DNA of 64,000 bases from Olegusella massiliensis (GTDB lineage Bacteria > Actinomycetota > Coriobacteriia > Coriobacteriales > Atopobiaceae): positions 1,373,404 to 1,437,403 of the forward strand of contig NZ_FLLS01000002.1 of NCBI RefSeq assembly GCF_900078545.1, read 5' to 3'. Of this stretch, positions 18,151 to 30,413 are shown piece by piece. The position numbers were made by a program, and so were the translations under genes. Numbering within the stretch: position 1 is the first letter of the stretch; each line of letters begins with the position of its first letter. Under the pieces are notes generated by a model, which was not told where the DNA came from, did not search any database, and was given only the letters and a program-made list of their open reading frames with translations.

Positions 18151-18321
18151 TGTCTACGAGATATATTTTTGTGAGTAGGGTTGGAATGCGCACTTGTCGC
18201 GATTCTTCTGTGTCTACGCTGCTACCATGAGAGTCCGTGCTTTACAGTGCAGTCTACGCTGTAGGGCCGTCTGCTGATCTGCGTCCGTACGGCACGGGGC
18301 GCGAGAGACGAGAGGATTTTG

Positions 18322-22453: not shown

Positions 22454-22533
22454 ACAGATGGTTCATCCTTCGGTGTTTACTGCCATAAATGCGCAGGTCA
22501 TTTTTTTGGAAGTCCGAAGGACGAACCATCTGT
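22454..22533. repeat. Inverted repeat, small copy of a dispersed palindromic repeat family
   Basis: Arms of 20 bases (22454-22473 and 22514-22533) match in inverted orientation with one mismatch, around a 40-base loop. On the minus strand the mismatch becomes a G-U pair. The left arm begins ACAGATGGTTCATCCTTCG; the same 19 bases occur at 27613. It lies between two converging genes. No transposase or clear target duplication is seen. Confidence 0.85.
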
Positions 22534-22644
22534 AGAAACAGCTGTAAAAGTAAGCACATAGAAGCAAGCAAAGCAAACATATGCAAGCACACGCCAGTGC
22601 ACATAACCGTAGCTCAGCATGCTCCTATGTCACAAATAGGTGTA

Positions 22645-24123: not shown

Positions 24124-24325
24124 GCTGCCTCCTTTTGTCCAAAGCTGCAAACGTTATAGTGTGCATTTAGCAGTCTATATACGCCGTCAGCGGATTGTTG
24201 GCATAAAACACCTTGTTTTGAGGTACTATAACCCTTGTGTCGCGCGGGACATCCGCTCGATATGGTATCGCGCGAAAAGCGCAGCGTTTATTGCGTCATA
24301 AAGGCGCACGAAGGAAAGGCACGTC

Positions 24326-24529
24326 ATGGCACAGGGTACTGTTAAGTGGTTCAACCCCGACAAGGGCTACGGCTTCATCTCTCGCGAGGATGGCGACGAC
24401 CTGTTCGTCCACTACAGCGAGATCAAGATGGACGGTTTCAAAACTCTTGATGAGGGTCAGGCTGTCGAGTTTGATATCACTACTGGTCAGAATGGTAAGC
24501 TTCAGGCTTCCAACGTCACCAAGGCATAG
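24326..24529 (+). CDS. cspA: Cold shock protein, CspA family
   Basis: A 67-residue single OB-fold protein. The RNA-binding motifs are visible: RNP1 in [10 protein letters not shown] and RNP2 in [10 protein letters not shown]. The start at 24326 has GAAAGG upstream. The protein acts as an RNA chaperone that opens secondary structure. The upstream region between 24124 and 24325 is shared with the divergent C69 dipeptidase, and a TATA-like stretch near 24227-24235 would give a leader of about 90 bases, as is common for csp mRNAs; this promoter is tentative. A strong terminator follows. Confidence 0.96.
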
Positions 24530-24565
24530 TTTCCCGCTGCGCTTAGCAGCTGAAGCAAAAGCTTG

Positions 24566-24596
24566 AGAGGGGTCCGAAAGGGTCCCTCTTTTTTTG
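24566..24596 (+). terminator. Intrinsic terminator after cspA
   Basis: AGAGGG (24566-24571) pairs with CCCTCT, extended inward by two G-U and two G-C pairs to a GAAA tetraloop, then seven T. This is a complete rho-independent terminator. Confidence 0.9.
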
Positions 24597-26151: not shown

Positions 26152-27567
26152 ATGGTTGATGAACAATTCAAGCAGAACGTTGATGCCTTTGTCGATGAGG
26201 TCTGGGAAGACGTTGTTGCTGATATTCGCAGGCTCGTGCGTATTCGTTCTGTCGAGGATCGCGCTGCCGCAAAGCCTGGTATGCCTTGGGGTTCTGCCTC
26301 CCATGATGCGCTCGTAGTCGGTCTAGGCATTGCCGATCGTTTGGGCCTGGACGCACATGAGTGCGAGGGTTATTTGGGCTACGCAGACCTTGCCGGTGAG
26401 TCGGACAAGCAAATCGCGACCATTGCTCATACTGATGTTGTGCCCGAAGGCTTAGGTTGGACCTTTCCTCCCTTTGATGTTTCGCGTAAGGAAGGTTGCC
26501 TTGTTGGTCGTGGTGTTTTGGACGATAAAGGCCCCTGTGTGTTATCGCTTTATGCTGCTCACTATTTTGTGCGTGAGGTACAACGTAGCGGCAAGAAGCT
26601 TCCGTATACCCTGCGCTGCATCGTAGGTAACAATGAAGAAACCAATATGAAAGACCTTGATTGGTATCTTGAGCGCTACCCCATGCCTGTATTTGCATTT
26701 TCGCCCGATGCAGAGTTCCCGCTGATTTGCGGTGAGAAGGGCCTGTATTCAGGAACTTTTTGCTCGGGCAAGATTGCAGGTGATGTCATTGTTGAGCTCG
26801 ATGGCGGTACCGTTGGCAATGCAATTCCTGGTCGCGCAACTGCTGTGGTCAGGCGTGTAGCAAGTGAGCTGCCTGAAGCCGATAATATCGATATTGAGGC
26901 GGCGGGGGATAGCCAGGCACTCATTACTGCTCATGGCAAGGGAGGTCATGCTTCTCGACCTGCAGGTACTATCAATGCGATTGCTTTGCTTGTTGACTAT
27001 TTGCTAGAGCACAAGCTGTGCTCTGCTAAGGAGCGCGTCTTCCTCGAGATGGAGCGCATACTGCTTGCGACAACCGATGGCTCTTCGGTGGGCATCGCAA
27101 GTGAGGATGATAAGTTTGGGCCGCTGACGCTCATTGGTGGCACAGTGCGTACGGAGAACGGCTGCTTTATACAGACGGTTGATTCACGCTTCCCGACTAC
27201 TACGACGGGTGAACACATCACCGAAACACTCAGCAGCTTTGGAGCCCAATATGGCTGCAACTACGCTGAAGGACGCAATGTTACGCCCTTTTATGTGAGC
27301 CCTGAGCTGCCCGAGATTCGCTGTTTGTTGGATACTTATGAAGAGTATAGCGGGCGTGAGGGCAAGGCCTTTACCATTGGCGGTGGTACCTATGCGCGCC
27401 ACTTTGCTTGTGGAGCTGCCTTTGGTCCCTGGGATCCAGCCGATCCTGTACCCGAGTGGGCAGGCCCCGAGCATGGTCCCAATGAGGCAATTCCTGAGGC
27501 CAGCCTTAAGCGTGCGCTTAAAATTTATATTGTGAGCATTGCCCGACTGATGGAACTCGAATTCTAA
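26152..27567 (+). CDS. M20 family dipeptidase, PepV-like, copy 1
   Basis: A 471-residue metallopeptidase starting at ATG 26152 behind GGGAGG. Zinc-ligand motifs are visible: IAHTDVVPEG (His), GRGVLDDKGP (Asp), NNEETNMKD (Glu pair with the catalytic base), FSPDAEFP (Asp) and GGGTYARHF near the end (His). PepV-type enzymes remove N-terminal residues from dipeptides and some tripeptides in the cytoplasm. The gene at 28998 encodes a protein of identical length, with by eye about half the residues identical, so the two are old paralogues. A repeat array and an inverted HAD gene lie between them. Confidence 0.88.
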   Translation: MVDEQFKQNVDAFVDEVWEDVVADIRRLVRIRSVEDRAAAKPGMPWGSASHDALVVGLGIADRLGLDAHECEGYLGYADLAGESDKQIATIAHTDVVPEGLGWTFPPFDVSRKEGCLVGRGVLDDKGPCVLSLYAAHYFVREVQRSGKKLPYTLRCIVGNNEETNMKDLDWYLERYPMPVFAFSPDAEFPLICGEKGLYSGTFCSGKIAGDVIVELDGGTVGNAIPGRATAVVRRVASELPEADNIDIEAAGDSQALITAHGKGGHASRPAGTINAIALLVDYLLEHKLCSAKERVFLEMERILLATTDGSSVGIASEDDKFGPLTLIGGTVRTENGCFIQTVDSRFPTTTTGEHITETLSSFGAQYGCNYAEGRNVTPFYVSPELPEIRCLLDTYEEYSGREGKAFTIGGGTYARHFACGAAFGPWDPADPVPEWAGPEHGPNEAIPEASLKRALKIYIVSIARLMELEF

Positions 27568-27612: not shown

Positions 27613-27813
27613 ACAGATGGTTCATCCTTCGAGTTGTTTACTAACAGATGGTTCGTTTGTCGAACTAGAAAAAAATCTGACCTGCGCTTTTATACTCGCC
27701 GACTTCGAAACTCGAACCATCTTTTGTTTGAGGCTTCGAAACTTGAACCATCTGTTATGTTTACTTCGAAACTTGAACCATCTGTTATGTTTACTTCGAA
27801 ACTGGTTGTAGGG
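27613..27813. repeat. Array of 30-31 base repeats in two orientations
   Basis: Two forward units start with ACAGATGGTTC at 27613 and 27644 (31 apart). After a spacer of about 35 bases, units in the opposite orientation start with CTTCGAAACT at 27703, 27734, 27764 and 27794 (31, 30, 30 apart), the last being partial. The units at 27734 and 27764 are identical over 30 bases. The forward and reverse units are complementary over GAACCATCTGT and TTCGAA, so a transcript of either strand could fold into long hairpins. There are no unique spacers, so it is not CRISPR. The unit is shared with the inverted repeat at 22454. Confidence 0.88.
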
Positions 27814-27928: not shown

Positions 27929-27964
27929 AAAACACTCCTTCAGCTTAGTCTGGAGGAGTGTTTT
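27929..27964. terminator. Bidirectional terminator between the M20 peptidase and the HAD gene
   Basis: Perfect 11-base arms AAAACACTCCT (27929-27939) and AGGAGTGTTTT (27954-27964) enclose a 14-base loop. The A-rich and T-rich ends let it work in both directions. Confidence 0.85.
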
Positions 27965-28997: not shown

Positions 28998-30413
28998 ATG
29001 GCAGACGAGCAGGTCAAACAGGACGCGCGCGCTTATATTGAGCGCGAGTGGGAAAACATCGTTGCTGATGTTGCTACCCTTGTCAGTATTCGTTCCGTTG
29101 AGGATATGGAGCATGCTGCCGAGGGCATGCCGTATGGCCCCAAGCCTTACGAGGCTTTGTGCGCCGCATGCGATATTGCAGAACGCATGGGTTTTGATAC
29201 TCACAATTGTGACGGCCATATCGCTTATGCAGATATCCCTGGTGCTTCCAAAAAGCAGCTCGCTCTTATTGGTCATACCGACATTGTGCCCGAAGGCACT
29301 GGTTGGACTTTCCCGCCCTTTGAAGTTACCCGCAAAGATGGCTACATGATTGGTCGCGGTGTTCTTGATGATAAGGGTCCTCTGGTTATGGGCATGTATG
29401 CGGCCAAGTTCTTTAAAGAGCAGGCAGACAAGACTGGTGAGCCCCTGCCTTATACCATCCGTTGCATTATCGGTAACAACGAAGAGACCGATATGCGTGA
29501 CGTGGAGTGGTATATCGAGAACTTCGAACAACCCGCGTTCCTTTTTACTCCCGACGCAGACTTCCCGGTAATCTGTGGCGAAAAGGGTGGTTATTCTGCC
29601 ACCATCCGTTCCAACAAGGCAATTGCCGACCAGATTGTAAGCTTTGAGGGTGGCACTGCCGGCAACGCTGTTCCTGGTCAGGCGATTGCAATCGTACGTG
29701 CCGATGCCTCCAAACTCACTGCTGCTGACCGTATTGAGGTTGAGGACTTGGGCGACGGTACCGTTCGTATCATAGCTACCGGTATCGGTGCTCATGCCTC
29801 CATGCCCGAGGGTTCCGTAAATGCAATTCTCGTTCTTGTTGATTATCTGTTGGACAATGGTATTGGTAGTGAAGCAGAGCGCCGCTTCCTTGAACTTGAT
29901 CACAAGGTACTTTGCACCACGGATGGCTCTTCTATGGGCTTTGCTTCCCGCGATGAGATGTTTGGTCCTCTGACCTGCATCGGTGGCACCATCTGCATCA
30001 AGGATGGTATTTTTGAGCAAACCATCGACTCTCGTTATCCTACCTCTATTAGTTCGGATGAAATTAGCGCTGCTATTGAGAAGGTTCTTGCTGATTACGA
30101 TGCTAATCTCACGATAGATCTTGATATGCCGACCTTCTATATCAAGCCCGATCATCCCGCAATCCAGACCTGCGTAGACACGTACAACGAGTACACGGGT
30201 CGCGATTCTGAGGCTTATGTTATTGGTGGAGGCACCTATGCGCGTCACTTCAATTGTGCCTGCGCCTTTGGTCCCAATGATCCTGCCTTCCCGATGCCTG
30301 ACTGGATTGGTGCTGAGCACTCTGCCGATGAAGGTTTTTCTGAGGAGCAGTTCAAGAAGGCCTTGGAGATTTACATCGTTGCGATGTCTCGTCTCATGAA
30401 GCTTGATTTCTAA
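28998..30413 (+). CDS. M20 family dipeptidase, PepV-like, copy 2
   Basis: A 471-residue paralogue of the peptidase at 26152, starting at ATG 28998 with AGAAAGGA upstream. Metal and catalytic motifs are preserved: GHTDIVPEG, GRGVLDDKGP, NNEETDMRD, TPDADFP and GGGTYARHF. Codon use is more biased to preferred codons than in copy 1, which suggests higher expression. Dipeptide hydrolysis in the cytoplasm after uptake by Opp is the likely job. A strong terminator follows at 30440. Confidence 0.88.
   Translation: MADEQVKQDARAYIEREWENIVADVATLVSIRSVEDMEHAAEGMPYGPKPYEALCAACDIAERMGFDTHNCDGHIAYADIPGASKKQLALIGHTDIVPEGTGWTFPPFEVTRKDGYMIGRGVLDDKGPLVMGMYAAKFFKEQADKTGEPLPYTIRCIIGNNEETDMRDVEWYIENFEQPAFLFTPDADFPVICGEKGGYSATIRSNKAIADQIVSFEGGTAGNAVPGQAIAIVRADASKLTAADRIEVEDLGDGTVRIIATGIGAHASMPEGSVNAILVLVDYLLDNGIGSEAERRFLELDHKVLCTTDGSSMGFASRDEMFGPLTCIGGTICIKDGIFEQTIDSRYPTSISSDEISAAIEKVLADYDANLTIDLDMPTFYIKPDHPAIQTCVDTYNEYTGRDSEAYVIGGGTYARHFNCACAFGPNDPAFPMPDWIGAEHSADEGFSEEQFKKALEIYIVAMSRLMKLDF

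Follow-up and report, generated by a model that had tools for sequence, protein, structure and literature searches.

The 64,000-nt stretch of Olegusella massiliensis DNA analyzed here (the window) carries, in a gap between convergent genes, a set of repeats that face each other, and the question raised by this locus is whether such an array is a local accident or belongs to a wider family of elements and, if so, what that family might do.

Architecture of the array and of its family

Two units on the plus strand, an outer left unit at 27613–27632 (ACAGATGGTTCATCCTTCGA) and an inner left unit 31 bp from it at 27644–27663 (ACAGATGGTTCGTTTGTCGA), face a series of units on the minus strand, namely an inner right unit at 27703–27724 (CTTCGAAACTCGAACCATCTTT), a second and a third right unit at 27734–27755 and 27764–27785, and a truncated fourth at 27794–27804 (CTTCGAAACTG, without GAACCATC). 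The initial annotation had listed two forward and four reverse units; forward copies of ACAGATGGTTC were indeed located at 27613 and 27644 and reverse copies at 27703, 27734, and 27764, but position 27794 holds only the truncated start of one (CTTCGAAACTGG). Its period of 30–31 bp agreed with the distances measured between the units, and the two reverse units at 27734 and 27764 are, as claimed, part of a stretch that is identical across 30 nt; local duplication therefore does add units. What had been read as a mere spacer is a conserved core on the plus strand (27669–27693, AAAAAAATCTGACCTGCGCTTTTAT, with TGACCTGCGCTTTTA at 27678–27692), which lies at the center of symmetry and had been overlooked. 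Inner left unit, core, and inner right unit together form a dyad of 76 bp (27647–27722, plus strand), matched by profile R1 with an E-value of 2.7e-22 (G000:C2:1401050-1401125). A copy at 22454, previously noted as a further unit, does belong to the family, but it is a complete element in the opposite orientation rather than a lone unit: it spans 22454–22535 on the minus strand with one unit on each side, contains the reversed core TAAATGCGCAGGTCATTT at 22486–22503, and was matched on the minus strand with an E-value of 4.3e-15 (G000:C2:1395859-1395933). CRISPR had been excluded from the outset, and this was borne out, since the units face each other around the core, and only short, partly identical stretches, not unique spacers, separate the tandem units.

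To count further copies, exact and profile searches were carried out. Exact matches to the word ACAGATGGTTC number 18 in the 1.81-Mb genome, versus 0 for a letter-reversed control. A 76-bp profile built from 16 copies (A1, R1) returned about 24 elements in the same genome, with a best E-value of 1.5e-23, as well as about 40 in Atopobium sp. oral taxon 810 (G001), the sister species; these E-values are rough, coming from a short-calibrated model. No strong profile match was found in 58 other relatives. The identical 30 nt in two right units might have been taken for a chance local duplication, which the initial annotation expected to be accompanied by fixed sequence and a lack of further copies. 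Instead, copies are dispersed and their sequence varies, and the numbers found genome-wide in both species rule this explanation out, leaving it a negligible probability.

Across the family, the element is non-coding and consists of two inverted units placed symmetrically around a core of 14–19 bp, forming a 76-bp dyad centered on ACC-TGC-GGT inside TCTGACCTGCGGTTTTA. Few parts are as well conserved as this center (AAAATCTGACCTGCGGTTTTA), and the span of the inner units is nearly invariant at 76 bp. Complementarity between the arms is found in register only (59%, versus 18–32% with a slide of 1–3 columns), and a fixed stem mismatch, T10/T66, is present in 47 of 60 sequences. Left and right units are of two types, the middle of the inner left units being mostly pyrimidine (TTT, TCC) and that of the inner right units mostly AGT or AGC. 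Extra units are added outward every 31 bp in the same orientation as the inner unit of that side, with peaks at 31 and 62 bp on both sides and only 6 units pointing the wrong way. As 31 bp corresponds to about three helical turns, the lattice places the units on one face of the DNA. The number of units differs among copies and between the two sides of one copy (about 1–4 on the left and 1–3 on the right), in keeping with the variable copy number per side that had been proposed.

Comparison with the sister species showed an element at the matching place for 19 loci, with both flanks matched for 16. At 5 of these 19 orthologous sites, the window locus among them, the element lies in the same gap but is inverted relative to its flanks, so orientation seems not to matter. 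Several copies in the sister genome are near-identical, with homology that stops within the outer units, indicating that copies are sometimes homogenized or spread. Two loci were compared with the sister genome for signs of insertion; neither showed a clean empty site, and no target duplication was found at the elements. At one of them, the sister genome has a 1.6-kb segment that is absent here (L195, 70–1659); in it, a 331-amino acid ORF with no Pfam match is enclosed by two near-identical young copies of the element in inverted arrangement.

According to simple ORF calls and ARAGORN, 16 of 25 loci lie in convergent gaps and most of the others in co-directional gaps, whereas gaps of at least 100 bp in the window, used as a control, comprise 12 co-directional, 4 divergent, and 4 convergent ones (4 of 20 convergent). 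Most copies are found either between convergent genes or downstream of the 3′ ends of genes and tRNAs, a placement that could reflect no more than what selection tolerates. Neighboring genes are ordinary (pyruvate formate lyase, pyruvate kinase, aldolase, rpoB, transketolase, lgt, and tRNAs). The neighborhoods inspected contained no transposase near the array, as had been stated, and no recurrent gene family, integrase, or transposase beside the elements in general. In the window, the gap that holds the array also holds an ordinary hairpin terminator at 27929–27964, and two paralogous genes for M20-type peptidases of 471 amino acids each (26152–27567 and 28998–30413) enclose a HAD-like hydrolase gene. 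Elsewhere in the window, an aspS RNA (RF02930) that exceeds its gathering score is found directly upstream of aspS at 18239–18316, and a full-length but sub-threshold match to the cspA thermoregulator (33.5 bits against a gathering score of 78; E-value of 1.5e-5) lies over a short possible ORF at 24162–24594.

The core in other genomes, phages, and plasmids

Weak profile matches in other families have the core alone in common with the element. The exact 14-mer TGACCTGCGGTTTT was found in 77 of 149 genomes of the class, often in several copies, versus a single match for the control, and is scarcer per genome outside the class. In other Coriobacteriia, inverted arms were detected at 27 of 72 cores but at only 7 of 304 neighboring control positions, and a further test on cores of the class gave 24 of 68 versus 1 of 104 controls; as loci of other genera were chosen by the exact core, these proportions do not give a rate for whole genomes. 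Among the clear cases at the level of the order, most have a core that is centered to within 1–3 bp and arms of a sequence particular to the genome or group, with AAGTGAGTAGACTTTT, GAGGGCCCACTTTCAGTACTTTTTT, and CGTTTACGGTTCGGTT being found among others. The sister species itself carries a second arm family, AAAAGGGTTCCTAA, which is arranged in tandem at 30–31 bp on both sides of a centered core and shows a left/right difference analogous to that of the main family. In other families of the class (L097–L126), the core adjoins whole or partial tRNA-Glu 3′ ends and the other arm is complementary to the 3′ part of the tRNA; these sites are possibly att sites or tRNA-derived elements.

The core is also present outside chromosomes. 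The core word CTCTGACCTGCGGTTTTRT was found in at least 120 IMG/VR contigs (60 of the matches listed being non-redundant by flank) and the reversed pattern in 0, and a variant in which a pyrimidine replaces R was found in 11. A 30-mer holding CTCTGACCTGCGGTTTTRT matched 943 phage-collection records at a permissive E-value, nearly all of them actinophages (767 of Mycobacterium, 104 of Gordonia, and 45 of Streptomyces), and 199 plasmid records, mostly from Streptomyces. Among the phage matches listed, the core hardly ever falls within an annotated gene, and it frequently lies close to a genome end. Outside chromosomes, too, the core flips relative to conserved flanks, being inverted in 51 pairs and not inverted in 637. 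Long inverted arms show no excess at phage cores (2 of 53, versus 4 of 181 controls), and short inverted words occur at 12 of 53 (versus 19 of 358 controls), so most phage cores have no flanking arrays. In two Streptomyces plasmids, the core has CTTCAGTCCC-type arrays on both sides and a primase/polymerase gene nearby. No plasmid or phage copy of the whole element with the sequence or pattern of this family was found, and one other arm family searched in plasmids and phages gave only core-sized matches. From this distribution of sequences, we infer that phage and plasmid cores may share one function with the chromosomal cores.

Two further features of the IMG/VR contigs were noted. In L318, L337, and L383, tRNA-like genes have core copies on one or both sides, direct or inverted. 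Many contigs of freshwater type (L285–L361) have TTGACA-N7-TAYRCT downstream of the core, followed by a stem-rich stretch (TGCTCAGA..GAGCATTAGG), which possibly represent a promoter and a structured RNA.

Weighing the explanations

The elements might act at the RNA level, as 3′-UTR hairpins that stabilize or end transcripts or as a source of small RNA, the core serving as a signal in the loop, but we consider this rather improbable. Their location at gene 3′ ends would suit such a role, as would some tRNA flanks (L152 and L337) in which two core copies make a terminator-like hairpin followed by T. It had been suggested that either strand of the array could fold, and both RNAs do fold far better than shuffles (z of −6.23 and −6.15); folding of this strength, about −6.2 on both strands, is what any such array must show. 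Covariation in the family is nearly absent, T10/T66 is conserved as a non-pairing position, the arms are unequal, orientation is free, and no Rfam match was obtained at the element up to E = 5, all of which argue against an RNA. On both strands, the sequence before the core shows no stable hairpin (mean z of −0.7 to 0.6 in three sets), and an intrinsic terminator at the core was therefore rejected. Imitation of helix 45 of 16S rRNA by the core was considered and dropped. A role in recombination or integration, in which the core would be an att-like strand-exchange site and the units would be arm-type sites for integrase-like proteins as in lambda attP, appears more doubtful still. In several genomes, the core adjoins a complete or partial tRNA-Glu copy; it is also present in phages and plasmids, flips in place, and has arm-type repeats on both sides, all as expected of such a site. 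Against this stand the stable chromosomal copies, about 24 in number, beside housekeeping genes with no integrase or recurrent family nearby, as well as the fact that no insertion at an element was seen; the frequent location of the core near genome ends, among the phage matches listed, was also counted against integration.

The main rival is a selfish REPIN-like miniature, an inverted doublet copied as a hairpin by a non-RAYT enzyme encoded elsewhere, with the bias toward gene ends due to selection. We rate this possibility only slightly below the reading favored in the next section. The form is that of a REPIN: an inverted doublet spanning 76 bp (71 bp in Pseudomonas fluorescens (PMC3116915)), a fixed stem mismatch like that of Escherichia coli REPs (PMC8266576), tandem arrays, extragenic location, and many copies, with near-identical young ones at several sites in the sister genome. 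However, the gene for Y1_Tnp (PF01797) had 0 matches in this genome and in that of the sister species, where positive controls were matched, and Y1_Tnp (RAYT-like) genes of other core-bearing genomes have no core and no cognate arm within 4–5 kb, several of them adjoining other palindromes instead; at L272, one degenerate core lies 0.9 kb from a Y1_Tnp gene. RAYT-like genes of relatives in the order (L265, L266, L268, and L269) are flanked by palindromes of their own, e.g. GTCCCAAAAGGGGCCAGGAGAAAATTGGGACA and GGGTTGGTTGGGGACGTGTTCC..CCAACCC; these are REP systems of the usual kind, distinct from the core elements. Moreover, most element sites are common to the sister species, neither of the two loci compared is a clean empty site, and class-wide conservation of a core with changing arms would be unexpected for a REPIN. 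No GTAG (or CGTC) tag marks the palindrome foot in an alignment of 64 sequences, in which units begin with AGATG. The earlier description of the array as REP-like thus holds for its form, whereas membership of the REPIN/RAYT group was rejected on the lack of a RAYT gene here and in the sister species, the association of RAYT genes elsewhere with other palindromes, and the missing tag.

A putative boundary at gene ends and its known counterparts

We tentatively favor, at clearly less than even confidence, a chromosomal cis-acting nucleoprotein boundary at gene ends, with putative binding proteins and a proposed role. Free orientation, a repeat spacing close to three helical turns, a geometry that stays fixed while the arms change, and unequal arrays together point to protein-bound double-stranded DNA over an RNA fold. 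Of the functions suggested initially, a protein-binding array fits best, given the 31-bp lattice and the independence of orientation, although the proteins themselves we infer. A conserved actinobacterial factor would bind the core, and a second, fast-changing protein with family-specific sequence would bind the arms; jointly they would mark off the ends of transcription units as a boundary that stops or insulates converging transcription, or the supercoils made by it, as proposed for BIME/REP arrays. Slippage or recombination between units would shift their number and would likewise homogenize and occasionally spread the copies.

A class-wide, recurring core with lineage-variable repeats looks like a landing site for DNA-binding proteins, not a local accident. 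More broadly and with greater reservation, CTCTGACCTGCGGTTTTRT may be a pan-actinobacterial cis-word, bound by a host factor as an orientation-free boundary in chromosomes, phages, and plasmids, of which the Coriobacteriia would have made a bipartite element whose arms are replaced wholesale while geometry and core stay fixed. Matches to the core in 943 phage records, in plasmids, and at the center of chromosomal arrays across the class imply that a protein or process recognizing it is conserved, and the core could serve as direct bait toward its putative binding protein. Fixed geometry with freely changing arms offers a natural experiment in the turnover of DNA-binding specificity. A limited and partial literature search yielded no published description of the element or core.

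The array is a kind of interspersed palindromic element, which the wider distribution of its core could make into something more. It resembles the BIME/RIP elements of E. coli, in which inverted units of two types, left and right, likewise surround a central motif at the 3′ ends of genes; BIME arrays bind gyrase or IHF. The present element differs in being unrelated to them in sequence, in its 31-bp lattice, and in a core common to actinophages and plasmids. REPINs share with it the inverted doublet of about 76 bp, the extragenic and dispersed location, the tandem arrays, and the fixed stem mismatch; it differs from REPIN/RAYT systems in having no RAYT gene in host or sister species, no GTAG tag, and a class-wide center with arms that change by lineage. 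The arm-type sites of phage attP and the iteron origins of plasmids likewise have helically spaced repeats on both sides of a core, whereas here there are many chromosomal copies without an adjoining replication or integrase gene. Finally, MITEs such as Correia and RUP are also short, non-coding, palindromic, and dispersed. Here, by contrast, neither a target duplication nor a clean empty site was detected, the number of units varies, and the arms are unrelated between lineages while the center is kept.
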